From assembly GCF_008014645.1 (NCBI RefSeq), contig NZ_VOWY01000002.1:62001-126000 (forward strand): 64,000 nt of DNA, given 5' to 3'. The notes below the pieces were generated by a model. The model saw nothing but the letters and a program-made list of their open reading frames with translations. It did not search any database and was not told where the DNA came from. Both the position numbers and the translations under genes were made by a program. Every line of letters starts with the position of its first letter. The stretch's first letter is position 1. Shown in pieces: positions 14,330 to 61,640 of this stretch. This stretch comes from Collinsella sp. BA40 (GTDB lineage: Bacteria; Actinomycetota; Coriobacteriia; Coriobacteriales; Coriobacteriaceae).

Positions 14330-16099
14330 TTACTGGCGCGGGATGGTCTCTTCCAGCGAGCACACCATAACGGCGCGCGTGGTACGCGGGATGATCTCGC
14401 CCGCGCAGGTGATGAGGGACAGCACCTTGTCCGTGGAGCCGATGCGCTCCTCGACATCGGGCGCTTGAGCTTTGGCCATGCCGAGCGTCTCCGTGAGGTA
14501 CTGCTGCAGTGTCTTATCGCCGGTGAAGTTGGTCACGCGGGCGTCGGTGAACGTGTCCATGACCTGCGCGGTGAACATGGGCTTGAAAACGTAGGTGTTC
14601 TCGCGCGTGATGTAATACACGTTGCCGAACTGGTTGAAGGCATCCTGCTTGAGCGTGTCGTCCACGATCTTGAACATCGTGTTGTCATACATGTGGTGAC
14701 CGTAGAGCGTGGTCTGCTCGTCCACCGCGCCGGGCGCGGTGCCATCCATGTCCATGAAGATGCTTCCCGAGCCGTTGCCCGACAGGTCGAAGAGGCGCGT
14801 GAGGTACGTGGTGTTGTTATCGGTTTGCACCACGGGATAGTTGATCACGGTGTTGGGCACGTAGATCCAGCCGATGACGTCGGGGTTGATGGCCTCGAGC
14901 TCATCGAAATCGACCTGCGGAATTCCGTCGCCCGCGCTATCCTGCACCGCGTACTGCTGGAGGTCGGCATAGGTGGCTTGCGCCTCCTTGTAACCCATCT
15001 GCGCGCGAACGAAGATGAAGCCCGCGGCGGCAAGCAACGCGATGCCCACGATGATAAGGATGACCGAGGCGATGCTGCGGCCCTTACCGCCCTTGCCCTT
15101 CCCGCCGTTACCGTTCGAGCCGCCGTTGCCGCCGTAGGGCGAGGCGCCGGACCGGTTGGCGCGGCGGACGTCGGTGGGAGGCGTAACGGACCTGGAAGCG
15201 CGCACCGGATACACGGGCTGCGGGCTGACGGCGGCCACCGGAGCCTGAGGAGAAACGGCATCGGCACCCGAAGGCTGCGTGCGAGGGCCGCGGGCGCTGG
15301 CAACAGCGAGGAACTCCGCGGTCGAGGACGGTTTAGCGGTCATATTGGCCGATCCATTCGTAAGCTTGCCGGTGGGGTCGGCGGGGTTGTTTACAGGCGT
15401 CGCGGCGGTTACCGCGGCATCGTCGGAAGCGGGGCCCCACAAGCTCGCCTCGGCCATGCGCGCATATGAATCGCTCGTCGACGGAAGGTTGAGGTCGGAT
15501 ACGCTTCGGCGAGGAGGCTGCGCCGCGGCCGCTACGGCTTCGGCGGAGGCACCCAAAGCGGCGGCGTCGGCAGCCAGCCTGCCCATGGCAACGGTTGCCC
15601 CGTTGGCTGACACGGGCATGGGAACCCGTTCGGGAGCAGGTACGCACGGCTGGGCGGGTGCCGGCGACGAGGAGGAAGGGGCCACCGGAGCCGGAGCAGC
15701 AGGCGCCACAGCGGCGGCGGGCGAGGGCTTCACCGAGGCGGCGATCTTCTCGATCTCATCGTCCGTATGGCCCGAGGCCTTCCAGGCAGACAGGAACTGC
15801 ATGGTGGTGGAAGGATCAACCTGGGCAGGAGCCATAAAGGGCTCCGCTACCTCGCCGGCGGGGACATATCGATTGCCCGCCGGGCGGTCGACATCGGCGT
15901 CCGCCGCACCCGCGGCATGGGGACGGCCGGCAGCAGCCCCGCCCATCGTGGCCTCGGGCCCCAAGGGATCAAACGACGGGGATGAGAAATGGCCACCGGC
16001 CGGAACGCGACGCGCGCGGGGCTCCGGAACGCTCGACTCGCCCGGTGCGACCCATAGGTTGTCCGCCCCCTCGAACGGGTTCTTCGTGGTATCGGCCAT
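14330..16099 (-). CDS. Class B sortase with a long cytoplasmic N-terminal tail
   Basis: The 589-residue membrane-bound transpeptidase should join surface proteins to the wall or to each other. Residues 1-342 are a low-complexity Ala/Pro/Ser/Gly-rich tail expected to stay in the cytoplasm, about ten times longer than usual for a sortase. One transmembrane helix (about 343-364, SIASVILIIVGIALLAAAGF) follows. The sortase B fold runs from about 400 to the end. It carries the marker NPDVIGWIYVPNTVINYPVVQ, catalytic His468 in YGHHM, Cys565 in LITCAGE and Arg575 in RTTRAVMV. The usual TLSTC is changed to SLITC. No LPxTG-type substrate is encoded nearby, so its targets lie elsewhere. GAGGCGG stands before the ATG and a good terminator follows. 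Confidence 0.88.
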   Translation of the reverse strand: MADTTKNPFEGADNLWVAPGESSVPEPRARRVPAGGHFSSPSFDPLGPEATMGGAAAGRPHAAGAADADVDRPAGNRYVPAGEVAEPFMAPAQVDPSTTMQFLSAWKASGHTDDEIEKIAASVKPSPAAAVAPAAPAPVAPSSSSPAPAQPCVPAPERVPMPVSANGATVAMGRLAADAAALGASAEAVAAAAQPPRRSVSDLNLPSTSDSYARMAEASLWGPASDDAAVTAATPVNNPADPTGKLTNGSANMTAKPSSTAEFLAVASARGPRTQPSGADAVSPQAPVAAVSPQPVYPVRASRSVTPPTDVRRANRSGASPYGGNGGSNGNGGKGKGGKGRSIASVILIIVGIALLAAAGFIFVRAQMGYKEAQATYADLQQYAVQDSAGDGIPQVDFDELEAINPDVIGWIYVPNTVINYPVVQTDNNTTYLTRLFDLSGNGSGSIFMDMDGTAPGAVDEQTTLYGHHMYDNTMFKIVDDTLKQDAFNQFGNVYYITRENTYVFKPMFTAQVMDTFTDARVTNFTGDKTLQQYLTETLGMAKAQAPDVEERIGSTDKVLSLITCAGEIIPRTTRAVMVCSLEETIPRQ

Positions 16100-16152
16100 A
16101 ATCCGCCTCGTGTCTCCTGTCTTCTACAAAAGGGTGGTACAGCACCAAGGCC

Positions 16153-16623
16153 CTAGGCCTCGGCCATCTCGTTCTTAAGGTTCACGATCGCCTCGCGGTA
16201 CTCGGGCATGGTAGCGCCGAGAATCTGCGTGGCATAGATGGCCGCGTTCTTGGCACCGTTGATGGCGACGCAGGCGACGGGCACGCCGGAAGGCATCTGC
16301 ACCATGGAGAGCAGGGAATCCATACCGCCCAGGTCGCTCGTCTTCATGGGCACGCCAACAACGGGCAGCGGCGTGAACGCGGCAACGACGCCGCCCAGGT
16401 GCGCAGCCTTGCCGGCCGCGGCAACGATGACCTTGATACCGCGATCGGCAGCGGTCTCCGCCCACTCGTGGACCTTGTCGGGGGTACGGTGCGCACTGGC
16501 GATAACCAGCTCGTAGGGAACGCCGAGGCGCTCCAGCTCGGCGGTGCAGCCCTCCATAACGGGAAGGTCGGACTTCGAGCCCATGATGATGCCAACGAGC
16601 GGGGTCTGAGCGGTATCGGACAT
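16153..16623 (-). CDS. purE: N5-carboxyaminoimidazole ribonucleotide mutase
   Basis: The 156-residue cytoplasmic enzyme moves the carboxyl group of N5-CAIR to give CAIR in purine synthesis. Class I marks are GIIMGSKSDLPVMEG (about 11-25), VIASAHRTPDKV (about 41-52), IVAAAGKAAHLGGVVAAFTPLPVVGVP and DLGGMDSLLSMVQMPSGVPVACVAI. The start at 16623 has GGAGG five bases upstream; the in-frame ATG 12 bases earlier would swallow that site. No purK is adjacent, which is unusual for class I PurE. It is followed after 53 bases by the sortase gene on the same strand. Confidence 0.94.
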   Translation of the reverse strand: MSDTAQTPLVGIIMGSKSDLPVMEGCTAELERLGVPYELVIASAHRTPDKVHEWAETAADRGIKVIVAAAGKAAHLGGVVAAFTPLPVVGVPMKTSDLGGMDSLLSMVQMPSGVPVACVAINGAKNAAIYATQILGATMPEYREAIVNLKNEMAEA

Positions 16624-16782: not shown

Positions 16783-17612
16783 TGTCCGTGAAGGCGTCCT
16801 AGGCGATACCTACTTCAGGTCCACCAGGTCCTTCTCCGCCATGCGCTGCAGGAACGCGGCCATGTCGCAGCGGACGATCTGCTCGTAGGGGCGGAACGTC
16901 TTGGTGCCGTCCTCGGCGGTCCAGCCGGTGGAGACGCCGGAGGCGGCCAGCCACAGCACGGCCTCGCGGTGCGGCGTGTCCTTCACGATATCCGAGAAGG
17001 CGTCCTTCGCCTCGAACTCGGGCTCGCCGGCCATGCGGTACAGGAACGCGGCCATGTCGCAGCGGGTGATCTCGGCGTAGGGGCGGAACTCGGCCTTGCC
17101 GTCGGCGCCCTCGTAGCCGGTGGAGATACCCTCCGCGGCGAGCCACAGGATGGCGTCGCGGTGCGGGGTCTTCTCGTCCACGTCGGCGAAGGCCGGGGTT
17201 TTATTGACGTCGAACTCCGGCTCGCCGGCCAGGCGGTAGAGGAACGCGGCCATGTCGGCGCGCTTCACCGTGGCGTAGGGGCGGAACTCGAAGGCGCCGT
17301 CGCCGTTATCCCAGCCCTTGCTGACGCCGTTGGCGGCCAGCCACTCGACCTCGGCCCTGTGCGACGTGTCCTCGTCCACGTCGACGAAGGCGACCTTCTC
17401 GACGGGCTTCAGGCCGGCGCGGGCGTCGGCCAGGGCCTTCGCGGCGGCGTCGACCGCCTTCTGGTCGGCCTTCTCGTCGGCCAGGACCTTCTCGGCGGAC
17501 TTCAGGGCGCCGGCGAACGGGTGCCAGGTCATGGTCTTGTAGTCCTCGGCCTTGAGGGCGCGGGCCTCCTTGACCGCGGCCTCGAGGGCTGCCTTGTTGA
17601 CCTGCGGGGCCT
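16783..17612. repeat. First copy of the ~830-bp SLH/FIVAR direct repeat
   Basis: This stretch is nearly identical to 23662-24491 at a constant offset of 6879 bases. It covers the last FIVAR unit, the three SLH units and the shared 3' untranslated end (TATGTCCGTGAAGGCGTCC). Changes inside are few and mostly in short patches. Identity falls sharply past about 17612. Confidence 0.9.
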
Positions 17613-20600
17613 CTTCCTTCTTCAGCGCGGCGTGGGCGTCGGTGAGCTGCTTCAGGGCAGCATCGACGTCGGCCTGGCCCGCCTTATCGCTGTCGAGGAC
17701 GCGCTTGGCCAGATCGCGGGCATCCGCGAAGGCCTTCCAGGAGTCGGCGGTGTAGCCGTCGGCCTTGATGTCCTTGACCTCGTTGTACTTGGCCAGCAGC
17801 GCGGCCTTGTTGACCTCGGGGGTTACAGGCTTATCGGCATCAGAGTAATGGAAGTTAATCTCGCGCAGGGTGAGCATGCGGTTCTTCGCAGCGTCGCCCG
17901 CATAGCCCTTGGCCTCGCCCTCGGAAGTGAGCGGGGTGATGTCGATGCTCTTGACGAGCTTGCCGGCCTCGGCCTTGAGCGTGTAGACAGCCTGCTTCTT
18001 CGCGAAATCGCCGCCCTTGAACTCGGACTTGGAGCCGTCGGTGTAGGTGATGACAGCCTGCATAGAGGTCACGGTGCCGTTGTAGGTGTCACGGTTCACA
18101 ACCTGGACATCGCGCATGACACGCGGAGACTTCAGCTCGAAATGCATCGTGGTGGGAAGCTTGACATACTCGGGCAGCTTGCCGTCCTGATAGTTCTGAT
18201 CAATATCCCACTTGAACTCGAAGTCGTTACTGGTCTCCTTGTTATCGAACAGGCCGTTGTAGTTGCCCTGCTGGATAAGCTTGGAGACGTTAGTGCCATC
18301 ATCGGACTTCAGGGAGTCGTTGGTCATCGTGATCTTGAAGTCGTCCTGGACCATCTCCTTGACCTCATCGACCGGCGGCTGCACCTCGCCCTCGACGTAG
18401 TGGAAGTTGATCTCGCGCAGGGTGAGCATGCGGTTCTTCGCAGCGTCGCCCTGATAACCGGTTGCGGTGCCGTCGGACGTCAGCGGGGTGATTTCGATGC
18501 TCTTGACGAGCTTGCCGGCCTCCGCCTTCAGGGTGTAGACATCCTGCTTCTTCGCGAAATCGCCGCCCTTGAACTCGGACTTGGAGCCGTCGGTGTAGGT
18601 GATGACGGCCTCCATCGAGTTGATGGAGCCATTGGAGCTCTTGCGATTCAGAATCTCAACGTCCTGCAGAGCACGGGGCTCCTTCAGCTCGAAGTGCATC
18701 GTGGTGGGCAGCATGACGTACTCGGGCAGCTTGCCGCTATCGTCGTGGTTGTAATCCAGATCCCACTTGAACTCGAAGTCGTTGCCGCTCTCCTTGTTAT
18801 CGAACAATCCGTCGTACTTCTTGGACTCCACCAGCTTGGCAACGTTCGTGCCATCGTCCTTGGGCAGCTTCGCGTTGGTCATCGTGATGTTGAACGCATC
18901 CTGACCGAGCTCCTTGATCTCGGGGCCGAGCTCGCCGCTCTTATCGGTGAGGAAGTCCTGCGCGGGACCGACGAGCCATGCCTGGCTGTCGAGCTTGACC
19001 TCGCAATCCTTCTTCGCCTTGAGCTGGAACGTAGCGATGGCCTCGGAACCCTTGTACAGCGCCTTATCGCCCTTGTTGGCCAATGCGATGTTCACGGAGT
19101 TGTTCTCGTCACCGAAGGTGTAGTGACCGGACTTATTCTCCATGCCCTTCGTGCTCTCGGCAACGGTGGGAGCGCTGCCAACGAACTCGAAGTCCGCAAC
19201 GGGGTAGCGCACGAGCGCACCCATAGCGTTAACGTTCTTGGCATTCTGAACCTTGACGGAAACCGTGATGGTCTCGCCCTTCTTCACCGAGGTCTTCTCG
19301 GGAACGACCGCGATCGCACCGGCAACCTTGCCCTTCTGCTTGGTACCGCCATCGAGCTTGGACATGGTGAAGGACATGTCGTAGACATCGTAGGCACCGT
19401 TGAGGTTGAAGTCAGCAGAGGACTGAGCGACATGAGAGTTCCAGTCGGTAACGCCGGAGCCGTGGTTCTCGCGACCGACGCAGTTACCGAGGTGCTGGTA
19501 ATCCTCGTCGCCAACGGTAACGGGCGCCTTCAGGGAGCCGGTTTCCATACCCTCGGTCTCGTCGACCTTATAAAGCGCGAGCTCGGTTGCCGAGAAGAAG
19601 CCGCCTGCAGACTTCTGAACGGTGAGACGCAGGTAGCGGGCGGTGGTGCCATCGAGCTCAACCGTCTTCTGAGCCATCTTGCCAGCGCCGGTGTTATCCC
19701 ACTTCTGAACGCCGTGGTCGGTCCAGTGGGCGCCATCCATGGAGGTCTCGACCTTCATCTCGGCCACGTTGCCGTTGCCACCGTTGTCCTGACGCGGCGT
19801 GTAGACAAACTTATCAAGCTGGAACGACTTACCGTAGTCGAGGGTCATCGGCATACCGATAGCACTGTCCGTAGAGTGGAACATGGACTCGGACTTGTCA
19901 TTGTGGTCGAATGCGTTGTCGAGCTTGCCCCAGCCGTCGCCGCCCTTCCAATCAATGTTGACCGGCTTGGGGGCGTTGCGCCACGGATCCTCGAGCGTAC
20001 GGGTCTTCATCTCGGCGCTCCACTCGGAAACACCCTCGGCGGTACGCGTGCGAATCTTGAACGTATGCTCGCTGTAATACTCGAGCCCGGTCACGTTGAA
20101 GGACGTGGACTCGCCGGACGGAATGCTGTTGAGCATACCGTCGATCATGATGTCGTAGCCGATAGCCTTATCGATCTTGTTCCAAGAGAGGTTCACGCTC
20201 GTGGGCGTCAGGTCGTCCTCACCGGGCTGATTGAGCTTCGGGGCGGCAATGTCCTTCTTCACTTCGTCGCTGGGCAGCTTGCCATCGTTCTTGAAGCCCT
20301 TGATCTCGAGCGTCTGCTCGTTGGCCTGAACATCGGTCTTTGCAAACTTCACGTACAGCTTCGGGGTCGTGGCGACCTCCTGCTTGCTGAAGCTCTCGTT
20401 ACGCACGGCCTCGCTCTCGGCGGTTGCATTGTAGTTGAGGTTCGGCTTCGTGTTGTAGAAGGTCACAACCTCGCCGACCGCAGGCACAGCCTTGTCGAAA
20501 GCGTCCTGGCTGTCGACCTTCTTCTCGGTAAGAACGGTGCCGCCGTTCTTAGCCACGATGGACTGGGGCTTCTCAGACACATTCACGATGAACGTGGTGG

Positions 20601-23133
20601 TACGATCCTTCTTGTAGCCATCGTAGGTACCCGTAGACTTGCCAGCGGTAAAAGTAGCGGCGCCACCCTTGGCCTCAGACTTGAAGGTGGTCTTCACGTT
20701 CGAGCCGTAGCTAATCGTGGACTCGCGACCATACGCCTTATCGGACTCGTTGACCGTATTCTCAACGAACTTGCCGGTGTCCTCGAACAGCGTGTACTCG
20801 TTCTTGCCCTCGGTGGCAAAGAACTCGACGTTGCGGATGGTGCGGTCGACGTCCTCGGGGCTGTTGTTCGGATTGTACATAGGAACAATCGCGTTGGCCT
20901 TCACGAAGACGGGAAGCTTCCACAGCGGAGCGTCGAAGTTGTTAAGCACCTGGCCGCCGCGATACTGCTTGCCAGAGAAGTAATCGATCCAGATGGTATC
21001 CTTGCCGCCAGGCAGGTAGATGCCGTTACGCACGTCGTTACCGTCGCCAAGGCCCTTGTTGGCAGCGTCACCATCGGTGTTCTGATAGATCGGAGCGATG
21101 AGGAAGTCCTCACCCATAGTGTACTCGTACTGCGTGGCGGTGCTGTTCGCATAGGCGGAATCCTCAGACAGGAGGATAGCGCGAACGAACGGCATGCCGG
21201 TGTCACCGTTGCCGGTATCGATGTTGGCAGCAGAGGCAGCGGTGGTGTAGATGTACGGCATAAGCTGAGACTTCAGCTTGAGGTACATACGGGAGATGCC
21301 GGTGTAGGGGTCGCCGTGCGTCTGCGGAGCCTTGGCATAGCTGCCCCAGCCGTCCATGTCGAGCATGAGCGGTGCGAAGGACTTCCACTGGTAATCGCGC
21401 GTAGCGATGATGGGCTGGCCACCGAAAATACCATCGTTGTCCGAACCAATGTTGGGATTGCCGGACAGCGACTGGCCGATGAAGGTGGGAACATGGAAGC
21501 GGATGTACTCCCAGTTGCCACCGGTCTGGTCGCCGGTCCAGATAGCACCAAAGCGCTGCGTACCCGCCCAGCCGTCGAGGGTAATGATATTGGGGCGGAA
21601 GTTGGCCTCTTCAGTCACGATATCGTACGCGGTCTTGGTGCCGTCGAGAGCCATGGAATAGCCAGGGCCGACCCAGGCAACGTCGGTCTTCAGGGTGGTC
21701 ACGCCACCGGTCTTGACCTCGGCACGGAAGTCGCGAAGAAGCTGCCACTGGGTTGCAGGATTAGCATCCGGAGTCAGATAAGACTGGGTCCACAGACCGG
21801 TTGCAACGCCCTTGCCATTGGCATACTTCGTAAACTCCTGGAGGTTCTTTACGTTCGCGGCAACGGCAGCAAGGCGCTCCTCGGAGCTCTTACCCGTAGC
21901 GGCATCCACGCCGCCCGTCTTGCCGAAACCATTCTGGCCATAGCCGGCACCATAGCCGTCGTTGGGCAGGAAGTATCCGAACGGCATGTCGTTGTCCTGG
22001 TAGTTATCCAGGCGGGCGCGAGCGGAGAAATCCTCAGAGAACTGAACGCCCTCGGGGATGTTCTCGGCCTGCTCGGTCGGGCCAGTGCCGTTAAGGGTCT
22101 CGACGATGGTACCAGGCTGCATCGTGGTGCCGGTGCCGCCCTTCTCATACTGAACCTTGCCACCGTTTTCAGAGGCGGGCGTGCTGCCCTTGATCTGCCA
22201 CTTGTTGTAGCCGCCCTTGGCATCCGCGGACCACATGTCGCGGTTCCATGCGTTCAGGTGGCCAACGTAGAACGCGTACTCGGGCAGCAGGACCGGGTTG
22301 CCAGTAACCTTGAAGTAGCCCTGGAGCAGGTCCTGAGCGATAGGAGCGGTCGAAGCGCCCTTCGCTGCATCAGCCACGAAGTAGTATGCGTCGAGCTCGT
22401 TCTCCTTATGCGTGGCAACGGTGGCATCGGCAGAAGACTTGCCAAAGTCATACGAACCGTCGGCGAAGGTGTTGCGGAGGACACCGTAGCCCTTGCTCGA
22501 CCAATAGAACGGGTTGGGCGAGGCCACGCCACCGTCTACCCAGTTGGACTCGTTAGCAATGTTGATGGTCTTGCCGGTGTGAATGAAGCGGCCGTTCTGG
22601 GTGCCGCCGCCGAAGAAGTTCTCGCCCTCGTGCTTCACGAGCTTCTGGACGGTGCCGCTCTTGTCGAGATCGAGCGCGGCGGATTCCTCCATGACCACGG
22701 TACCGTCGGTCTTGACGGTCATCTTAGCGGTTGCCTTATCGAACTCGATAGTGGTCTTGCCATTTGCAGCAGAGATTACGAACTTGCCGCCCTCCTCTTT
22801 CACGCTCGCCTGAGGACGCGAGTATTTGGAAGAGGTGTCAGGCTGAGCCTGAATCTTAGCCGTGTGAGCAGCGTTCTTCGGCGTTGCATACGCGCTGAAC
22901 TCGCCCTTGGGGTCAACGTTGTAGCGGAAGATACCATCTTCCAGCAGGGTGATCTTACCCTGAATACCATCATTGAAGGTGATGGTGACCACGTTGTCCT
23001 GAGCCGTAGCGGACTTCACGCTGGCGAGCGGCGCAGCGTATGCCGGGGCGGCAACGGCAAGGGAGAGCGCAGTAGCGGCTACGACCGCGCTGCCCTTCAC
23101 CCAACGGTGGCTGAACAAAGATTTCTTCTGCAT
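16810..23133 (-). CDS. Giant secreted GH31 glycosidase, probable alpha-N-acetylgalactosaminidase, SLH-anchored
   Basis: The 2107-residue surface enzyme has a signal peptide (cut near residue 33, AYA). The GH31 N-sandwich and barrel run over about 40-755, with nucleophile candidate D484 in LKTDVAWVG and acid/base candidate D535 in WTGDQ. FN3 is at about 970-1047 and a discoidin/CBM32-like domain at about 1050-1188. The dockerin-like segment is at about 1200-1263 (DFNLNGAYDVYDMSFTMSKLDG) and the cohesin-like domain at about 1268-1395. Two about 170-residue repeats follow (1408-1578, 1594-1764, both ending NRMLTLREINFHY), then two FIVAR units (1775-1838, 1844-1910) and three SLH units (1914-2104). 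The barrel sequence fits the GH31 branch acting on GalNAc of mucin O-glycans rather than alpha-glucosidases, which carry a W-x-D-M-N-E motif. GAGAGGAG precedes the ATG. A DasR/NagR-type operator lies 59 bases upstream. The downstream gene's paralogue is next door. Confidence 0.88.
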   Translation of the reverse strand: MQKKSLFSHRWVKGSAVVAATALSLAVAAPAYAAPLASVKSATAQDNVVTITFNDGIQGKITLLEDGIFRYNVDPKGEFSAYATPKNAAHTAKIQAQPDTSSKYSRPQASVKEEGGKFVISAANGKTTIEFDKATAKMTVKTDGTVVMEESAALDLDKSGTVQKLVKHEGENFFGGGTQNGRFIHTGKTINIANESNWVDGGVASPNPFYWSSKGYGVLRNTFADGSYDFGKSSADATVATHKENELDAYYFVADAAKGASTAPIAQDLLQGYFKVTGNPVLLPEYAFYVGHLNAWNRDMWSADAKGGYNKWQIKGSTPASENGGKVQYEKGGTGTTMQPGTIVETLNGTGPTEQAENIPEGVQFSEDFSARARLDNYQDNDMPFGYFLPNDGYGAGYGQNGFGKTGGVDAATGKSSEERLAAVAANVKNLQEFTKYANGKGVATGLWTQSYLTPDANPATQWQLLRDFRAEVKTGGVTTLKTDVAWVGPGYSMALDGTKTAYDIVTEEANFRPNIITLDGWAGTQRFGAIWTGDQTGGNWEYIRFHVPTFIGQSLSGNPNIGSDNDGIFGGQPIIATRDYQWKSFAPLMLDMDGWGSYAKAPQTHGDPYTGISRMYLKLKSQLMPYIYTTAASAANIDTGNGDTGMPFVRAILLSEDSAYANSTATQYEYTMGEDFLIAPIYQNTDGDAANKGLGDGNDVRNGIYLPGGKDTIWIDYFSGKQYRGGQVLNNFDAPLWKLPVFVKANAIVPMYNPNNSPEDVDRTIRNVEFFATEGKNEYTLFEDTGKFVENTVNESDKAYGRESTISYGSNVKTTFKSEAKGGAATFTAGKSTGTYDGYKKDRTTTFIVNVSEKPQSIVAKNGGTVLTEKKVDSQDAFDKAVPAVGEVVTFYNTKPNLNYNATAESEAVRNESFSKQEVATTPKLYVKFAKTDVQANEQTLEIKGFKNDGKLPSDEVKKDIAAPKLNQPGEDDLTPTSVNLSWNKIDKAIGYDIMIDGMLNSIPSGESTSFNVTGLEYYSEHTFKIRTRTAEGVSEWSAEMKTRTLEDPWRNAPKPVNIDWKGGDGWGKLDNAFDHNDKSESMFHSTDSAIGMPMTLDYGKSFQLDKFVYTPRQDNGGNGNVAEMKVETSMDGAHWTDHGVQKWDNTGAGKMAQKTVELDGTTARYLRLTVQKSAGGFFSATELALYKVDETEGMETGSLKAPVTVGDEDYQHLGNCVGRENHGSGVTDWNSHVAQSSADFNLNGAYDVYDMSFTMSKLDGGTKQKGKVAGAIAVVPEKTSVKKGETITVSVKVQNAKNVNAMGALVRYPVADFEFVGSAPTVAESTKGMENKSGHYTFGDENNSVNIALANKGDKALYKGSEAIATFQLKAKKDCEVKLDSQAWLVGPAQDFLTDKSGELGPEIKELGQDAFNITMTNAKLPKDDGTNVAKLVESKKYDGLFDNKESGNDFEFKWDLDYNHDDSGKLPEYVMLPTTMHFELKEPRALQDVEILNRKSSNGSINSMEAVITYTDGSKSEFKGGDFAKKQDVYTLKAEAGKLVKSIEITPLTSDGTATGYQGDAAKNRMLTLREINFHYVEGEVQPPVDEVKEMVQDDFKITMTNDSLKSDDGTNVSKLIQQGNYNGLFDNKETSNDFEFKWDIDQNYQDGKLPEYVKLPTTMHFELKSPRVMRDVQVVNRDTYNGTVTSMQAVITYTDGSKSEFKGGDFAKKQAVYTLKAEAGKLVKSIDITPLTSEGEAKGYAGDAAKNRMLTLREINFHYSDADKPVTPEVNKAALLAKYNEVKDIKADGYTADSWKAFADARDLAKRVLDSDKAGQADVDAALKQLTDAHAALKKEEAPQVNKAALEAAVKEARALKAEDYKTMTWHPFAGALKSAEKVLADEKADQKAVDAAAKALADARAGLKPVEKVAFVDVDEDTSHRAEVEWLAANGVSKGWDNGDGAFEFRPYATVKRADMAAFLYRLAGEPEFDVNKTPAFADVDEKTPHRDAILWLAAEGISTGYEGADGKAEFRPYAEITRCDMAAFLYRMAGEPEFEAKDAFSDIVKDTPHREAVLWLAASGVSTGWTAEDGTKTFRPYEQIVRCDMAAFLQRMAEKDLVDLK

Positions 23134-23190
23134 CCAAGCTCCTCTCGTCTTGTTCTTAGATGCGGCTGAAAGCCGGCCTATCCGGTTATG

Positions 23191-23213
23191 ACTGGTATCT
23201 ACCAGTTAACCAG
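23191..23213. promoter_or_regulatory. DasR/NagR-like operator of the first GH31 gene
   Basis: ACTGGTATCTACCAGT at 23191-23206 is a perfect palindrome of the form ACTGGT-N4-ACCAGT. A third half-site, ACCAG, lies three bases further at 23209-23213. The centre lies about 65 bases before the start codon. The same arrangement with the same spacing stands before the paralogous gene. The form equals the consensus of GntR/HutC-type amino-sugar regulators (DasR, NagR). Confidence 0.75.
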
Positions 23214-23573
23214 TTAGGTAGTCCACCCTACGCTATGTCTCTTGGGAGCATTTGTGTTGGCCCCATCGACAGACGGTCAAAATCACTTCGTAAGCGGCTA
23301 TTCACTCTTGTAGACTGCAGCGCATACTGCACAATCGACCTCTTTTCGTAGTCAGAAGTTGTTTATCGGCTAATACATAGCCGTAAGCTGGGATTATGAC
23401 CTTCCTTAAGCTACTGCTTCCCATATGTGGGTTTTTAACAACTGGTATTAGATTTTTAAACAGTTGCAGGTCATGTTTGAGATGTACTTGCGCAAGCTGC
23501 ACCGCATCGAAGCAAGAACGCGCAAAAAGGGGCTCCGATCAAAATACCAACCTCCAACGGTGCGGGCGCGTGC

Positions 23574-23602
23574 TCGGAAAAGTGCCTGTCCCCTTTCCGA
23601 GA
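23574..23602. repeat. REP-like hairpin, GTGCCTGTCCC family, copy 1
   Basis: CTCGGAAA and TTTCCGAG form an 8-bp stem around the core GTGCCTGTCCC (23582-23592). It lies just past the terminator of the second GH31 gene. Confidence 0.75.
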
Positions 23603-23609
23603 GGGGCGG

Positions 23610-23649
23610 CGAAAAAGAGGAGGGAGCCGGCCTGGAAGCCGGCTCCCTC
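23610..23649 (-). terminator. Terminator of the second GH31 gene
   Basis: AGGGAGCCGGC at 23621-23631 pairs perfectly with GCCGGCTCCCT at 23638-23648, followed on the minus strand by CCTCTTTTTC. Confidence 0.9.
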
Positions 23650-23661
23650 GCGTCGGGGATA

Positions 23662-24491
23662 TGTCCGTGAAGGCGTCCTAGGCGATGCCTACTTCAGGTC
23701 CACCAGGTCCTTCTCCGCCATGCGCTGCAGGAACGCGGCCATGTCGCAGCGGACGATCTGGTCGTAGGGGCGGAACGTCTTGGTGCCGTCCTCGGCGGTC
23801 CAGCCGGTGGAGACGCCGGAGGCGGCCAGCCACAGCACGGCCTCGCGGTGCGGCGTGTCCCTCGCGATGTCCGAGAAGGCGTCCTTAGCCTCGAACTCCG
23901 GCTCGCCGGCCATGCGGTACAGGAACGCGGCCATGTCGCAGCGGGTGATCTCGGCGTAGGGGCGGAACTCGGCGCGGCCGCCCTCGCCCTCGTAGCCGGT
24001 GGAGATGCCCTCGGATGCGAGCCACAGGATGGCGTCGCGGTGCGGGGTCTTCTCGTCCACGTCGGCGAAGGCGACGTCCTTGGCGTCGAAGGCGGGCTCG
24101 CCGGCCAGGCGGTACAGGAACGCGGCCATGTCGGCGCGCTTCACCGTGGCGTAGGGGCGGAACTCGAAGGCGCCGTCGGCGGTCGGCCAGCCCTTGCTGA
24201 CGCCGTTGGCGGCCAGCCACTCGACCTCGGCCCTGTGCGACGTGTCCTCATCGACGTCGACGAAGGCGACCTTCTCGACGGGCTTCAGGCCGGCGCGGGC
24301 GTCGGCCAGGGCCTTCGCGGCGGCGTCGACCGCCTTCTGGTCGGCCTTGGCGTCGGCCAGGACCTTCTCGGCGGACTTCAGCGCCGCGGCGAACGGGTGC
24401 CAGGTCATGGTCTTGTAGTCCTCGGCCTTGAGGGCGCGGGCCTCCTCGACCGCGGCCTCGAGGGCGGCCTTGTCGACCTGCGGGGCGGGCG
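23662..24491. repeat. Second copy of the ~830-bp SLH/FIVAR direct repeat
   Basis: This is the partner of 16783-17612, at a constant offset of 6879 bases. It holds the last FIVAR unit, three SLH units and the 3' flank of the second GH31 gene. The rest of the two genes is clearly more diverged. Confidence 0.9.
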
Positions 24492-27400
24492 CGGGCTTCT
24501 TGGCCAACGCGTCATGCTTCTCCGTAAGGTCTTTCACCAACGCGTCGACCACGGCTTGCTGGTCGGCCGCCGGCGGGTTGGCCAGCAGGGCCTTGGCATC
24601 CTTCATAGCCTGAGCATACGGGACCCACGTTGCCTCGGTGTACTGATCGGCCACCAGTCCCTCGGCCTCGTACTGCTTGACCAAGGCATCCAGCGCGGCA
24701 ACGTTCGCGGCGGCAGGCGTGCGCTTGTCGTAGAAGCGAACCTCGGCGACGGACGCGTACGCGTTCTTCTTCTCGCCGCCGGCCTTGGTCGCCTCGATCT
24801 TCACGAAGCGCGTGGCCGTGGGTGCGAAGCTCATCTGCTGCCACGCCTGGCGGTTGGTGAGCACCTCGCCGTTGTTATCGAACGTGAAGGTGCCCAGCAG
24901 CGTGCCCTTGCCATCGCCGTCGAGCGACGACACGGTGTTTCCCACGTACACCTTCGCCTCGAAGATATCGCCGTTGGTGCCGCCGTCCTGGCGGGTCTTG
25001 AACGCGATATCCGTGAGCGTGTGCTCCTTACCCAGGTTGAAGATGAGGTAATCGGGCAGCTCGTCGCGGTCGTTGTAGTTGGAGTGCCAGTACGTATCCT
25101 CGTTGTAGTCGAGGGCGTTGCGGAACGGCGACTCGGACGCGGAGCTGCTCGCCTTGATGATGAAGACGCCGGAGCTCGTGTCCTTGTTGAAGTGGCTGTC
25201 GAAGTCGATCGGGATGAGCTTGAGCGCGGCGATGGCCTCGTCGATCTTCACCGCGTACTCGTGCACCTGTTCCTCGGTGATCTCGTTAGAGTCCAGGAGC
25301 GCCTGAGCCTGGGCCACCACGTCCTGCAGGCGCTTATACGAATCGGGCGTGTACACGCTCTTGTCGTAGGCGCCGGCACGCTCGATGGCCTCGTCCAGCT
25401 CGGCGGTATTGAGGCCCTCGCGCACGGTAAGCTCGTACGTCGCGCTCTTGGTCTCGTCCAGCGCGGACGTCACGGTGATGGTAGCCTTGCCCACCTTGTT
25501 CGCGCGGATGTAGTTGACCACCTCGTCGCCCACGCGTACGCGCGTCACGCTGGCGACTTCGGGCTTGGAGCTCTCGGCCGTGTAATACGGATAAGCGTTA
25601 TCGGCAGGGAGCACCGTAGCCTTGATGGTGTCCACATCGCCCACGTACAACGTCTTGGCGTTGTCGCCCAGCTCGACCGCGTCGACAGACGCAGCGACGG
25701 CAGGCGTCTTGAAGTTGATCTCGCGCAGGGTGAGCATGCGGTTCTTGGCATCCTCGCCCTCGTAGCCCTGTGCAGGCACGCCCTCGCAACTCAGCGGCTT
25801 GATGGACACCGACGCCACCTTCTTGCCCGCATCGGCACGGAAGGTGTAGACGTCCTGGCGCTTGGCGAACTCGCCGCCCTTGAACTCCTTCGTGGTGCCG
25901 TCCTCGTATGCGATCACGGCCTCGATGTTGGTGACCGTGCCGTTGCCGCCCAGGCGGTTGAACACCTCGACCACGCCGAGCTCGGTGGGCTGCTTGAGCG
26001 TGAACGTAAGCGTGGAGGGAAGCTTCACGTACTCGGGCAGCTTGCCGTTGATGTGATTGTTCACGATATCCCACTTGAACTCGAAGTCGTTCGAGTTCTC
26101 GTTGCCGTTGAACAGACCGCTCCAACCAAGGAACTGGATCATCTTGTTCACGTTGGTGCCGTCGTCCTCGGTGAGGACGTCGTTGGTGATCGTCATCTTC
26201 GAGAAGGCATCCATACCGAGCTCCTGCACCGCGGGAGCGGGCTTCTCGGGCAGCTCGACGTTACCGGTGTCGACATTCTCTACGGCGTCGCACGCGGGAC
26301 CGATGAGCCAGGAGGTCGAAGGCAGCGCCACTTCGCCGTCCTTCAGAGCCTTGAGCTTGAAGGACGCCACGGGCGCGGATCCCGCAAACAGCTTCTTGTC
26401 GCCCTTGTTGGCGTAGGCGATGTTCACCGACTGCTGGCCATCCGCGAAGTCTGTGGTAACCGCGGACAGGTCGACCATCTCGGCGAGCTGCTGGCCCTGT
26501 GCAAGGCTATCGCCAACGTAGCTGAACATCTTGCCATCGAAATGCACCAGGGAGCCCACCGCGTTCACGTTGGCTGCGTCGTTCGCGTACACGCTCACAT
26601 CGATGGTCTCGCCAGCCTTCACCTTGTTCTTGCTGGGGATCACCACGATACCGCCCGACACCTTGCCGTCCTTGGTGGTGCCGCCGTCGAGCTTGGACAT
26701 GGTGAAGGACATGTCGTAAACGTCGTACGCTTCGTTGAAGTTGAAGTCGGCGTTCTGGCCGGCCACGTGGGTCCACTGCTCGACGTAGGGCGCACGGTTC
26801 TCGCGACCCTTGAAGTTGCCCGTGAGCTGAGAGAAGTCGGCATCGGTCACGGCTCCGTCGCCCGCGATCGAACCCACCTCGAAGGCCTCGGTATCGTCTT
26901 CCTTGCTGATCACGATCTCGGAAGCCGAGAAGAAGTTGCCCACGGCCTTCAGCGGCGTCATGCGGATATAGCGCGCAGAGGTGTTGAGCTCAACTTCCTT
27001 GGCTTCGGCGTTCTGCGCCCAGTCGAGCTCCTGGCTCTTCCAATGCACGCCGTCCATGCTGGTCTCGATGCGCATCTTGGTGACGGTGCCGTTGCCGGCA
27101 TCGCTGCGCGGATGATATACGAGCGTGGTGAACTTGTATGCCTGGCCGTAGTCGAGCGTGAGCTGCTTACCCATATCGTTGCCGCCGGAATGGAAGCCGC
27201 CGTCGCCGGACTGGAACTGCTTATCGAACGCGAGGTCCACAACATGGTTGCCGTAGATGGTGCCGGTCCAGGTGGTGTTCTTGGCCACCGGCACGTTGCG
27301 CCACGGGTCCTCGAGCGTGGTCACGCTCAGCTCCTCGCTCCAGTTGGATACGCCGGAGGCGGCGCGCTGGCGAATCTTCACCTTATGCGTGCTGTGGTAC

Positions 27401-30400
27401 TCCTGGTCGGCCACGGTGAACTGCATGAGGTCGGATGCGGGCACGCTGTGCAGCATGCCGTCGATCATGAATTCGTAGCTCGTTGCACCCTCGACCTTGT
27501 CCCAGCTCAGCGTATAGCTCGTGGGGGTCAGCAGGTCCTGCGGCGCGCGCACCGTGGGCACCGCGAGCTTTGCATCCACCTCGTTCGACGAGAGCCTGCC
27601 GTCGTTCTTGAAGCCGGTGAGCACAAGCGTCTGATCGTTCGCCTGCACATCGGTCGTGGCGAACTTCACGTACAACTTGGGCGTGGTGATGATCTGAGTC
27701 TGGGAGAATCCCTCGGCCTTCACGGCCTCGGGAGCATCGGTCGAAGCGCCGTAGTTGAGGTTGGGCTGCGCGTTGTAGAAAACGACGCACTCGCCGGCTG
27801 CGGGCTGGGCGGCATCGAATTCGGCCTGGGTGCCGACCTTCTTCTCCTTCAGAGCGGCATCGCCGTTCTTCGCCACGATCTTCGACGGCTGCTCGGACAC
27901 GTTCACCACGAACGTGGTGGTGCGGTCCTTCTTGTAGCCCGCATAGGTGCCCGTCGACTTCTTCGCGGTGAACGTGGCCGTATCGCCCGCGACCTTGGAC
28001 GTAAAGGTGGCCGACACATGGTCGCCATAGGAGATCTTGCCCTGCTTGCCATACTCCTTGTCGGAAGTATCGGTCTTGTTCTCCACGTAGGTGCCGGTGT
28101 CCTCGAACAACGTGTAGCTGTTCTCGCCGGAAGTGGCGAAGAATTCAACGTTGCGCACGGTGCGATCGATCTTCTGGGGGCTGTTATTCGGCTCGTACAT
28201 GGGCACGATAGCGTTGGCCTTCACGAACACGGGAAGCTTCCATAGCGGCGCGGCGAAATTATCGAGCACCTGGCCGCCGCGATACTGGGCGCCGGTGAAG
28301 TAATCGATCCAGATGGTGTCCTCGTCGCCCGGCAGGTAGATGTTGTTGCGCACGTCGTCGCCCTCGCCCACCTTGCCGCCGGTGCCGTCGGTGTTCTGGT
28401 AGATAGGCGCGATGAGGAAATCCTCGCCCAGCGTGTACTCGTACTGCGTCGCGGTGCTGTTGGCGTAGGCCGAGTTATCGGACAGCAGGATGGCACGAAC
28501 GATGGGCAGGCCCGCGTCGCCATTGCCCGTGTCGATGTTGGCTGCGGAGGCAGCGGTGGTGTAGATGTAAGGTAGAAGCTGGGACTTCAGTTTGAGGTAC
28601 ATGCGGGAGATGCCGGTATAGGGGTCGCCGTGCGTCTGCGGGGCCTTGGCATACGTACCCCAGCCATCCATGTCGAGCATGAGCGGAGCGAAGGACTTCC
28701 ACTGGTAATCGCGCGTGGCGATGACGGGGTCGCCGCCCCAGATGCCGTCCATGTCGGAACCGATGTTGGGATTGCCGGAGAGCGACTGGCCGATGAACGT
28801 GGGCACATGAAAGCGGATGTACTCCCAGTTGCCGCCCACCTGGTCACCGGTCCAGATGCCGGCGAAGCGCTGGGAGCCGGCCCAACCATCGAGCGTGATG
28901 ATGTTGGGGCGGAACTTCGCCTGCTCCGTCACGATATCGTACGCGGTCTTGGTGCCGTTGAGGCCGAAGGAGTAACCGTAGCCAACCCATGCGACGTCGG
29001 TCTTCAACGTGGTCACGCCGCCCTTGGAAACCTCGGAGCTGAAGTCGCGCAGCGTGTGCCACTTCGTTGTCGCGTTGGAATCGGGAGTCAGGTTGGACTG
29101 CGTCCACAGGCCGGTGGCCACGCCCTTGCTCTTGGCGTAGTCGCTAAACTCCTTCAGGTTCTGCACGTTCGCCTCGACGGCCGCCAAGCGCTCGGGCGAG
29201 CTCTTGCCGTTTGCCAAAACGCCGCCGGTCATGTTGTAGCCGTTCTGGCCGTAACCGCAGCCGTAGCCGTCGTTGGGCAGGAAGTAGCCGAGCGGCATGT
29301 CGTTATCGATATACTCGTCCATCTTGGCGCGGGCCGAGAAGCGCTCGTCGGTCTTTACGCCCTGTGGGATCTTGCTCGTCTGAACGGTCGCCGGGGTACC
29401 GTTCAAGCTCTCCACGGTGGAACCGGCCTGCATCTCAACACCGGTGCCGCCCTTCTCCCACTTCGTGGTGCCGGCACTGGGATCGGTTGCCGGGTCGCTA
29501 CCCTTGACCTGCCACGCCTTATAGCCGGAACGCGCGGTCTCCGACCACATATCGCGATTGTACGCGTTGAGATGGCCGACGTAGAAGGCGTACTCGGGAA
29601 GCAGCACCGGATTGCCCGTCACCTTGAAGTACTGCTGCAGGATCTGCTGGGCGACGGGAGCGGTCGAGACCCCCTTCGAGGCATCGGCTACGAAATAATA
29701 GGCATCGAACTCGTTCTCGTCGTGCGCGGCAACCACATCGTTGGTCGTCTTGCCGAAGTCATACGTGCCATCGAAGAACGTGTTGCGCAGAACGCCGTAG
29801 CCCTTATCGGACCAATAGAACGGGTTGGGCGACGCCACGCCGCCGTCCGTCCAGCTTGACTCGTTGGCAATATGGATCGAGTTACCCGTATGGATAAAAC
29901 GACCGTTCTGGGTACCGCCTCCGAAGAAGTTCTCGCCCTCATGCTTAACGAGCGTCTGGGTGGTGTTCCCACGGTTGAGATCGAGCGCCGACTGCTCTTC
30001 CAGAACCACCTTGTCGCCAGATTTCACCGTCATCTTGGCGGTCTTGCGATCGAGTGAGATCGTGGTGCTACCCGAGGTGATAACGAAGGCGCCGTCCCGT
30101 TCGGTAACGGACGCCTTGGGATGGGTATATGCATCCGAAGCATCCGGCTGGGCCTGGATGCGGGCCACATGGGCGGAGCTGCGAGGCTGGGCATAAGCCG
30201 AGAACTGCCCGCTCGGATCGACGTTGTAGCGGAAGATGCCGTCATCGAGGAAGGTGATTCTACCCTTGACGTTACCCTCGAACGTCACGTCGACCACGTA
30301 GTCATCGGTCTTGTTCACGGCAACATCCTTCACGCCGGCGAGGGGCGTGGCGAAGGCCGGAGCCGCGATGGCAAGCGATAACGCCGTGGCGGCTACGACC

Positions 30401-30447
30401 GCGCTTCCTCTAACCCAACGACGCTTGAGGACTGGCTGCTTATACAT
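23689..30447 (-). CDS. Second giant secreted GH31 glycosidase, paralogue of the first, SLH-anchored
   Basis: The 2252-residue surface enzyme is a tandem paralogue. Counting from the chosen start: signal peptide to about 33 (AFA); GH31 region about 40-757 with D484 in LKTDVAWVG and D535 in WTGDQ; FN3 about 972-1048; discoidin-like about 1052-1185; dockerin-like about 1195-1258 (a better first calcium loop, GDGAVTDADFSQL, than its sister); cohesin-like about 1264-1387; one copy of the 170-residue repeat (about 1410-1580). A Big2-like Ig domain (about 1588-1677) and a second discoidin domain (about 1752-1907) are absent from the sister. FIVAR units and three SLH units end the chain. The start at 30447 is chosen because AAGGAG lies five to six bases before it; the ATG 15 bases earlier overlaps that site. 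Regulation is likely shared through the operator at 30506. Confidence 0.88.
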   Translation of the reverse strand: MYKQPVLKRRWVRGSAVVAATALSLAIAAPAFATPLAGVKDVAVNKTDDYVVDVTFEGNVKGRITFLDDGIFRYNVDPSGQFSAYAQPRSSAHVARIQAQPDASDAYTHPKASVTERDGAFVITSGSTTISLDRKTAKMTVKSGDKVVLEEQSALDLNRGNTTQTLVKHEGENFFGGGTQNGRFIHTGNSIHIANESSWTDGGVASPNPFYWSDKGYGVLRNTFFDGTYDFGKTTNDVVAAHDENEFDAYYFVADASKGVSTAPVAQQILQQYFKVTGNPVLLPEYAFYVGHLNAYNRDMWSETARSGYKAWQVKGSDPATDPSAGTTKWEKGGTGVEMQAGSTVESLNGTPATVQTSKIPQGVKTDERFSARAKMDEYIDNDMPLGYFLPNDGYGCGYGQNGYNMTGGVLANGKSSPERLAAVEANVQNLKEFSDYAKSKGVATGLWTQSNLTPDSNATTKWHTLRDFSSEVSKGGVTTLKTDVAWVGYGYSFGLNGTKTAYDIVTEQAKFRPNIITLDGWAGSQRFAGIWTGDQVGGNWEYIRFHVPTFIGQSLSGNPNIGSDMDGIWGGDPVIATRDYQWKSFAPLMLDMDGWGTYAKAPQTHGDPYTGISRMYLKLKSQLLPYIYTTAASAANIDTGNGDAGLPIVRAILLSDNSAYANSTATQYEYTLGEDFLIAPIYQNTDGTGGKVGEGDDVRNNIYLPGDEDTIWIDYFTGAQYRGGQVLDNFAAPLWKLPVFVKANAIVPMYEPNNSPQKIDRTVRNVEFFATSGENSYTLFEDTGTYVENKTDTSDKEYGKQGKISYGDHVSATFTSKVAGDTATFTAKKSTGTYAGYKKDRTTTFVVNVSEQPSKIVAKNGDAALKEKKVGTQAEFDAAQPAAGECVVFYNAQPNLNYGASTDAPEAVKAEGFSQTQIITTPKLYVKFATTDVQANDQTLVLTGFKNDGRLSSNEVDAKLAVPTVRAPQDLLTPTSYTLSWDKVEGATSYEFMIDGMLHSVPASDLMQFTVADQEYHSTHKVKIRQRAASGVSNWSEELSVTTLEDPWRNVPVAKNTTWTGTIYGNHVVDLAFDKQFQSGDGGFHSGGNDMGKQLTLDYGQAYKFTTLVYHPRSDAGNGTVTKMRIETSMDGVHWKSQELDWAQNAEAKEVELNTSARYIRMTPLKAVGNFFSASEIVISKEDDTEAFEVGSIAGDGAVTDADFSQLTGNFKGRENRAPYVEQWTHVAGQNADFNFNEAYDVYDMSFTMSKLDGGTTKDGKVSGGIVVIPSKNKVKAGETIDVSVYANDAANVNAVGSLVHFDGKMFSYVGDSLAQGQQLAEMVDLSAVTTDFADGQQSVNIAYANKGDKKLFAGSAPVASFKLKALKDGEVALPSTSWLIGPACDAVENVDTGNVELPEKPAPAVQELGMDAFSKMTITNDVLTEDDGTNVNKMIQFLGWSGLFNGNENSNDFEFKWDIVNNHINGKLPEYVKLPSTLTFTLKQPTELGVVEVFNRLGGNGTVTNIEAVIAYEDGTTKEFKGGEFAKRQDVYTFRADAGKKVASVSIKPLSCEGVPAQGYEGEDAKNRMLTLREINFKTPAVAASVDAVELGDNAKTLYVGDVDTIKATVLPADNAYPYYTAESSKPEVASVTRVRVGDEVVNYIRANKVGKATITVTSALDETKSATYELTVREGLNTAELDEAIERAGAYDKSVYTPDSYKRLQDVVAQAQALLDSNEITEEQVHEYAVKIDEAIAALKLIPIDFDSHFNKDTSSGVFIIKASSSASESPFRNALDYNEDTYWHSNYNDRDELPDYLIFNLGKEHTLTDIAFKTRQDGGTNGDIFEAKVYVGNTVSSLDGDGKGTLLGTFTFDNNGEVLTNRQAWQQMSFAPTATRFVKIEATKAGGEKKNAYASVAEVRFYDKRTPAAANVAALDALVKQYEAEGLVADQYTEATWVPYAQAMKDAKALLANPPAADQQAVVDALVKDLTEKHDALAKKPAPAPQVDKAALEAAVEEARALKAEDYKTMTWHPFAAALKSAEKVLADAKADQKAVDAAAKALADARAGLKPVEKVAFVDVDEDTSHRAEVEWLAANGVSKGWPTADGAFEFRPYATVKRADMAAFLYRLAGEPAFDAKDVAFADVDEKTPHRDAILWLASEGISTGYEGEGGRAEFRPYAEITRCDMAAFLYRMAGEPEFEAKDAFSDIARDTPHREAVLWLAASGVSTGWTAEDGTKTFRPYDQIVRCDMAAFLQRMAEKDLVDLK

Positions 30448-30505
30448 CCATACTCCTTCCATAGGATCATCCTGGCGAGCCCAGCATGCGACTCGCCCCC
30501 GACCA

Positions 30506-30747: not shown

Positions 30748-30788
30748 GCCCCTCTCGGAAAAGGGACAGGCACTTTTCCGAGAGGGGC
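30748..30788. repeat. REP-like hairpin, GTGCCTGTCCC family, copy 2 (inverted)
   Basis: A perfect 16-bp stem, GCCCCTCTCGGAAAAG at 30748-30763 and its complement at 30773-30788, encloses a 9-base loop. The GGGACAGGCAC core spans 30763-30773. Confidence 0.85.
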
Positions 30789-30790
30789 GG

Positions 30791-30816
30791 AGAAAAAAGA
30801 GGGGGCCGGCCCCCTC
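30791..30816 (-). terminator. Probable terminator of carAB
   Basis: The palindrome GAGGGGGCCGGCCCCCTC at 30799-30816 is followed on the minus strand by TTTTTTC. It stands about 100 bases after the carB stop, beyond two REP-like copies. Confidence 0.75.
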
Positions 30817-30823
30817 GCGTCGG

Positions 30824-30904
30824 GTGCTCGGAAAAGTGCCTGTCCCTAATCTGAGCGTCGGGGATATGTCCGTGCTCGGAAAAGTGCCTGTCCCTAATCT
30901 GAGC
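30824..30904. repeat. Two exact 33-bp REP-like copies, GTGCCTGTCCC family, copies 3 and 4
   Basis: Copies at 30824-30856 and 30872-30904 are identical, beginning GTGCTCGGAAAAGTGCCTGT and ending CTAATCTGAGC. Between them lies GTCGGGGATATGTCCGTG, which also occurs next to the 3' end of the second GH31 gene at 23655-23672. Confidence 0.88.
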
Positions 30905-58711: not shown

Positions 58712-58763
58712 GGCGTCTCCCGTCTCCTCGATCCTCACTCGCCTTGTTATACCCAGCGCCATG

Positions 58764-58797
58764 AAAAAGGCGGGGCGCATGTCATCTGCGCCCCGCC
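58764..58797 (-). terminator. Terminator of gyrBA
   Basis: GGCGGGGCGCA at 58769-58779 pairs perfectly with TGCGCCCCGCC at 58787-58797, followed on the minus strand by TTTTT. It separates gyrA from the GH3 gene. Confidence 0.9.
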
Positions 58798-58886
58798 CGG
58801 CTTGGGTGTATGTCTCAACCGCGCGCGATGGCTGGCAAGCCCATCCAGCCGGTATCCAGCCCCGCCTTACTTGGCAGCCCGACGCC

Positions 58887-61640
<2,754 letters not shown>

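Follow-up and report, generated by a model that had tools for sequence, protein, structure and literature searches.

Two adjacent genes of the gut bacterium Collinsella sp. BA40, here called GH31a and GH31b, encode giant secreted GH31 enzymes whose C-termini carry SLH repeats. By their sequences, both proteins belong to the GH31 family that clips α-GalNAc, and enzyme and domain plan are of a known kind; the unexpected part is the SLH anchor, which is found in no other intact full-length homologue examined. It is highly probable that the two are SLH-held α-N-acetylgalactosaminidases of the GH31_18 type in which both LPXTG-type anchors have been replaced in place by a copied cassette. The enzyme family, the catalytic residues, the modules, an ancient duplication and near-identical anchor cassettes are all apparent from the comparisons described below. 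The genes and a neighbour are located in the window, the whole 64-kb stretch of DNA that was analysed, as follows:

16810..23133, minus strand: GH31a (P0001), 2107 residues, secreted multi-modular GH31 with SLH at the C-terminus
23689..30462, minus strand: GH31b (P0002), 2257 residues (2252 from Met6), multi-modular secreted GH31 ending in SLH
14330..16099, minus strand: sortase gene, His, Cys and Arg kept, a syntenic neighbour of GH31 in Collinsella

Both proteins have a Sec-type signal peptide, and G+C at third codon positions is high in both reading frames, as is usual for coding sequence, bearing out a sequence-only reading of this DNA which had described two neighbouring secreted giants of 2107 and about 2252 residues. 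SLH as the odd part was absent from that reading. The proteins are 64% identical overall and 75% identical in the catalytic part; over the last ~240 residues identity is 84–97%, mostly above 94%. The genes are adjacent on the minus strand in the order carB-GH31b-GH31a-purE, and a GH31 barrel search found no further member in the genome (1.93 Mb in 30 contigs, 99.99% complete, 0.12% contamination). A scan of the intergenic stretch between them gave no promoter match, and one terminator-like hairpin is present 3' of GH31b, but shuffled sequences yield equally many. The neighbours within the window are housekeeping genes of purine and pyrimidine metabolism (carAB, pur) and the sortase gene. A local mucin gene cluster was rejected, since the window holds housekeeping genes, one sortase and one distant GH3, the last with an Fn3-like domain (56237–58996) and adjoining gyrA.

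Several Collinsella relatives carry GH31 at the same carAB/purE site with a sortase gene nearby. In C. stercoris, purE and the sortase gene are found on both sides of GH31 (L005:7494-7952 and 16094-16558), a local duplication. In genomes G018 and G024 a large LPXTG-type CBM32 protein lies between carB and GH31 (L131:2164-7758 and L133:2789-8326); it appears GH36-like by eye, without a Pfam catalytic match, and its N-terminal enzyme-like part was not found in the BA40 genome. In G029 a 3221-residue LPXTG-type protein with 16 FctA isopeptide domains adjoins the GH31 pair (L130:1047-10712), and in G036 (L112, L011) a GH31_18-type gene is split into two ORFs.

The catalytic parts and their key residues were assigned as follows:

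20270..23028, minus strand: GH31a catalytic part, residues 36-955 (N-domain, barrel, C-domain); 6m76 match at 690 bits, Pfam GH31 domains
27595..30342, minus strand: GH31b catalytic part, residues 41-956; Pfam GH31 domains, 6m76 match
21682..21684, minus strand: GH31a predicted nucleophile codon, Asp484 (KTDVAWVG); 7f7r/7f7q alignment, D in 86/86
21529..21531, minus strand: GH31a predicted acid/base codon, Asp535 (WTGDQ); D in 86/86
28996..28998, minus strand: GH31b predicted nucleophile codon, Asp489; motif, alignment, D in 86/86
28843..28845, minus strand: GH31b predicted acid/base codon, Asp540; motif WTGDQ, D in 86/86

Residues 36-1052 of GH31a and 47-1055 of GH31b match the GH31 α-N-acetylgalactosaminidase of E. 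faecalis (6m76, 6m77, 7f7q, 7f7r) through N-domain, barrel, C-domain and FN3 (E ~1e-205, ~690 bits), with 49% identity in the catalytic part, whereas other solved GH31 structures score at most 82 bits. The motifs KTDVAWVG and WTGDQ, noticed in both barrels from the sequence alone, are indeed present and are common to the E. faecalis enzyme. The nucleophile aligns with the residue mutated to N in 7f7r and to A in 7f7q, and the acid/base role of Asp535 is presumably that known from the E. faecalis enzyme. The catalytic pair is invariant in all 86 GH31_18-type barrels. Its earlier numbering as D484/D535 in each protein is right for GH31a, and for GH31b only when counted from Met6. In a tree of 89 rows, with only three outgroup rows (E. 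coli YicI and YihQ and the Coriobacteriia GH31 L155), all on long branches, GH31a and GH31b fall among 86 sequences including the E. faecalis enzyme, apart from YicI, YihQ and L155 (support 100). This grouping and the gap in score uphold the proposed placement in the α-N-acetylgalactosaminidase branch. The 86 members would correspond to CAZy subfamily 18, an assignment made via the E. faecalis enzyme. Against the NCBIfam α-xylosidase and MalA models both proteins score 75–88 bits, where the cut-offs are 606 and 800; α-glucosidase or α-xylosidase identity was rejected by these scores, the structure matches and the tree.

Conservation extends beyond the catalytic pair. Each protein deviates at two of the 190 positions kept in at least 92% of the 86 barrels: GH31a has Trp296 in place of Tyr and Val548 in place of Ile, and GH31b has Val553 in place of Ile and Asp734 in place of Asn. 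The Trp at the equivalent of position 296 also occurs in three Collinsella relatives. The GH31_18 members characterised so far are all reported to act on α-GalNAc (PMC13096917). In that source, UGRO018_00696 of Hoskinsella mucinilytica, a GH31_18 enzyme with two CBM32, cleaved pNP-α-GalNAc but left uncut the more native substrates that were tried, so that mucin Tn is not assured as the natural substrate; no SLH is mentioned there for this protein, whose locus tag is consecutive with that of a GH36 (PMC13096917). α-GalNAc activity, the natural substrate and use of mucin are accordingly predictions for GH31a and GH31b.

The accessory modules between the catalytic part and the anchor are the following:

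20002..20244, minus strand: GH31a FN3; Pfam fn3
19582..19986, minus strand: GH31a CBM32-1; Pfam, matches CpGH31 CBM32-1 (4lpl)
17860..18906, minus strand: GH31a, two CBM32-2-type modules; first repeat matches 4uap, second resembles the first
26899..27306, minus strand: GH31b CBM32-1; Pfam, structure match
25693..26220, minus strand: GH31b, one CBM32-2-type module; alignment to GH31a
25420..25692, minus strand: GH31b Big_2; Pfam E 0.006, below cut-off
24724..25218, minus strand: GH31b CBM32-3-type module; best match 4lks/4lqr/4p5y, CpGH31 CBM32-3

Pfam domains above cut-off in both proteins are the GH31 N-terminal, barrel and C-terminal domains, F5/8-C (CBM32), FIVAR and SLH. The fn3 and cohesin domains also exceed it in GH31a (hmmscan); the cohesin of GH31b is barely at cut-off (24.1 bits), and its FN3 is recognised from alignment to GH31a and 6m76. 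Together with the alignments and the homologous segments, these matches confirm the common plan of GH31, FN3, discoidin, dockerin-like, cohesin-like, sugar-binding repeats, FIVAR and three SLH which had been proposed. The nearest solved relatives of the binding modules are CBM32-1, -2 and -3 of CpGH31 (CPF_1301) from Clostridium perfringens, which combines GH31 with FN3, three CBM32 types, cohesin and Big_2 (PMC5291390). Its order, GH31-FN3-CBM32-1-cohesin-CBM32-2-Big_2-CBM32-3, is followed by GH31b, with a weak Big_2 and a dockerin-like segment before the cohesin. GH31a, by contrast, has CBM32-2 doubled and is without Big_2 and CBM32-3, whilst GH31b alone has these two and an additional FIVAR; the SLH tails and FIVAR repeats set both proteins apart from CpGH31. 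All three CBM32 of CpGH31 bind GalNAc, CBM32-2 being GalNAc-specific (PMC5291390). Aligned with 4lks, with positions matched by hand, the CBM32-3 of GH31b retains the residues (His-x-x-Tyr, Arg, Asn and a final Tyr) whose pattern has been reported to go with binding of GalNAc/Gal.

From the different accessory domains the sequence-only reading had proposed two related but distinct O-glycan substrates. The binding modules do differ, but the active sites are nearly invariant, and the two-substrate reading is weak for this reason. As judged from the alignments, the docking modules have diverged far more than the conserved active-site positions, suggesting that the two enzymes dock in different contexts to cut one and the same bond; different substrates are not implied.

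A dockerin-like segment and a cohesin form one unit in each protein:

18952..19563, minus strand: GH31a dockerin-like + cohesin unit; family-level Pfam, AlphaFold, cohesin fold Z 9.4
26281..26898, minus strand: GH31b dockerin-like + cohesin unit; family-level Pfam

The dockerin-like segments of GH31a and GH31b lie below Pfam detection. Across the family, homologous segments match Dockerin_1 in 34/64 and Cohesin in 49/64, and the homologues compared for the unit come from Actinomycetota, Bacillota and Bacteroidota. AlphaFold modelled the 204-residue unit of GH31a with a mean pLDDT of 95.9 and a pTM of 0.91, the latter suggesting that the two parts hold a fixed mutual placement in the model. Fold searches with the unit matched mainly its cohesin part, residues 81-202 aligning with cohesin structures at Z values of up to 9.4 (115 residues, 2.3 Å).

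The unit invites a comparison with mucinolysomes, in which cohesin and dockerin-like modules would recruit further enzymes, and cohesin–dockerin pairs do link glycoside hydrolases in C. perfringens and Limousia (PMC12997984). Here such recruitment seems rather unlikely. The only cohesins in the genome are the two within GH31a and GH31b, and no dockerin was detected elsewhere in it by a model that also misses the dockerin-like segments of these two proteins. Of 83 homologue sequences, moreover, 79 have the unit in cis and the other four are short or truncated ORFs. The unit is predicted to fold as a single confident body; the cohesin of CpGH31 itself bound none of the dockerins tested (PMC12997984). 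A mucinolysome or cellulosome is not supported, there being no multi-cohesin scaffoldin and no dockerin match in other enzymes. We infer that the unit is a built-in part of the family and not a recruiting device. A specificity other than that proposed, be it for α-glucosides, α-galactosides or mainly blood group A, is in turn improbable: GH31 is a multi-specific family and blood group A also bears a terminal α-GalNAc, but the nearest solved relative is an α-N-acetylgalactosaminidase at 49% identity, the remaining solved GH31 structures score an order of magnitude lower, and a single activity is known in GH31_18 (PMC13096917).

If the enzymes conform to a known family, their anchors do not. The C-terminal cassettes are:

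16810..17613, minus strand: GH31a last FIVAR + 3 SLH cassette; Pfam, alignment, codon comparison
23689..24483, minus strand: GH31b last FIVAR + 3 SLH cassette; ~95% DNA identity to the GH31a cassette

Both proteins end in three SLH repeats, with the variant motifs VKRAD, ITRCD and IVRCD, and the C-terminal combination of LPXTG, hydrophobic stretch and basic tail is absent from both. Amongst the tails of 85 GH31_18-type sequences, SLH occurs in GH31a and GH31b only; 43 are LPXTG-like, nine run off the end of a contig and 31 fall outside the pattern, several of these (DTGD, QTGD and KTGD, for example) resembling variant sortase signals and others ending anchorless. A profile built from the two SLH tails found no match in any other GH31 sequence examined. 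The name under which the E. faecalis enzyme was deposited, LPXTG-motif cell wall anchor domain protein, marks it as sortase-anchored. The other Collinsella GH31_18 proteins (C. aerofaciens L007, C. stercoris L005, G024, G018, G029) share the core modules and, in most, the carAB/purE/sortase site, G029 having the same tandem order; unlike the BA40 pair they have LPXTG-type anchors without SLH, and most are single copies. Of 45 genomes in the genus, 7 have SLH matches and 44 have sortase-type anchors. The BA40 genome has 29 SLH matches; G040 has 36, yet its GH31 tail is LPXTG-type. In other bacteria SLH binding depends on a polysaccharide pyruvyl transferase, and a single PS_pyruv_trans match is found in the BA40 genome, among SLH genes on contig C27. 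This gene may act as CsaB, and GH31a and GH31b, with their signal peptides and SLH repeats, are predicted to bind the wall and remain at the surface.

The two genes are not recent copies of one another. In an N-terminal tree GH31a pairs with the only copy in G024 (100/99) and the purE-side copy of G029 pairs with C. stercoris (100/100), whilst GH31b joins the second G029 copy in a pairing that falls short of full resolution (91/94). A sister grouping of GH31a and GH31b is rejected (p-AU 8e-18), which places the origin of the pair before these species and excludes a simple recent tandem duplication. The orthologues of each paralogue have LPXTG-type tails. The SLH part of GH123, GH84 and transglutaminase-like genes is 92–97% identical in DNA to that of GH31a or GH31b; two GH20 and a second GH84 follow at 76–87%, and two more proteins have SLH tails at no more than 66–70%. 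FIVAR repeats also precede the LPXTG tails of relatives. These sequences would be most simply explained if a FIVAR-SLH cassette was copied and the crossovers fell within the FIVAR repeats. A dispersed palindrome accompanies the cassette:

23573..23601, minus strand: copy of a dispersed palindromic repeat, 3' of GH31b; other SLH-cassette genes are followed by it as well
30754..30894, strand not assigned: three more palindrome copies between carB and GH31b; sequence search

This palindrome, CTCGGAAA(A/G)GGGACAGGCACTTTTCCGAG, is 29 bp long and lies within ~230 bp 3' of five SLH-cassette genes. Copies elsewhere are at L122:7549, L123:5001-5083, L124:10594 and 10634, and L126:9622 and 9662; none was found in five stretches with LPXTG-type genes (L166-L170).

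Ordinary inheritance, in which the SLH tails would be old in both genes and alike through purifying selection, could appeal to functional constraint on SLH domains, but constraint on the protein sits poorly with the codons: at identical residues, third bases agree at 234/246 positions in the cassette (95%) and at 633/994 upstream (64%; Fisher p 4e-27). Other SLH tails of the genome agree with those of GH31a and GH31b at only 53–78%, the cassettes of GH123 and GH84 are as close to them as they are to each other, and the sister-species orthologues have LPXTG-type tails, leaving inheritance barely probable. An assembly artefact, by which repeats in a short-read assembly joined SLH tails to GH31 genes, is suggested by five or more near-identical cassette copies in an assembly of 30 contigs. 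It is nevertheless very unlikely, as both genes are continuous open frames whose SLH tails lie between the correct neighbours, the cassette copies are 3–8% apart in DNA, and the assembly is near-complete with little contamination. The direction, timing and mechanism of the preferred anchor swap are putative, and the swap is seen in this single 30-contig genome. The chances seem about even for a wider proposal, that the FIVAR-SLH cassette and its 3' palindromes are an interchangeable anchor spread by ectopic recombination, which re-anchored much of the N-acetylhexosaminidase set (GH31 x2, GH123, GH84 and others) from sortase to S-layer-type attachment while the sialidase, fucosidases and β-galactosidase kept sortase anchors.

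The enzyme set, drawn from targeted stretches of the genome and so a lower bound, comprises extracellular enzymes on SLH (GH31 x2, GH123, GH84 x2, GH20 x2) and on sortase-type anchors (GH33, GH29, GH95, GH2, GH20 x2, GH123). The two GH123 paralogues, 43% identical, have different anchors, SLH at L124:6540-10574 and LPXTG-type at L169:3477-6818. A search without positive control found no GH101 in the genome. The enzymes listed are plausibly an O-glycan trimming set in which removal of α-GalNAc is a late step. The proposal of a surface mucin-degrading system stands as to surface architecture and mucin-type setting, the latter genome-wide, and fails as to a local system. The sequence-only observations were confirmed, and their interpretation is partly supported.

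Alpha-linked GalNAc is the sugar which joins mucin glycans to protein. GH31a and GH31b would act as exo-acting, retaining α-N-acetylgalactosaminidases, Asp484/489 attacking the anomeric carbon of a terminal α-GalNAc with Asp535/540 as acid/base, whilst the CBM32 modules may keep the enzyme on glycans bearing GalNAc or galactose. After export, the three C-terminal SLH would bind a pyruvylated wall polymer non-covalently. Late in trimming, GalNAc would be taken off Ser/Thr, or terminal α-GalNAc removed, with a separately encoded sialidase, fucosidases, β-galactosidase and β-N-acetylhexosaminidases as partners. In this lineage the FIVAR-SLH cassette would have replaced in place both ancestral LPXTG-type anchors of an old paralogue pair, and would also have been copied among other N-acetylhexosaminidase genes, probably by recombination in the FIVAR repeats.

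The pair appears to be a case in which a class of surface enzymes changed its mode of attachment through the copying of one anchor module among genes that are otherwise unrelated. Whether an enzyme is retained or released depends on how it is attached to the wall, and this in turn affects who feeds on mucin-derived sugars. The occurrence of dockerin and cohesin together in cis across phyla may likewise mark a built-in unit, a proposal testable for the whole enzyme family.
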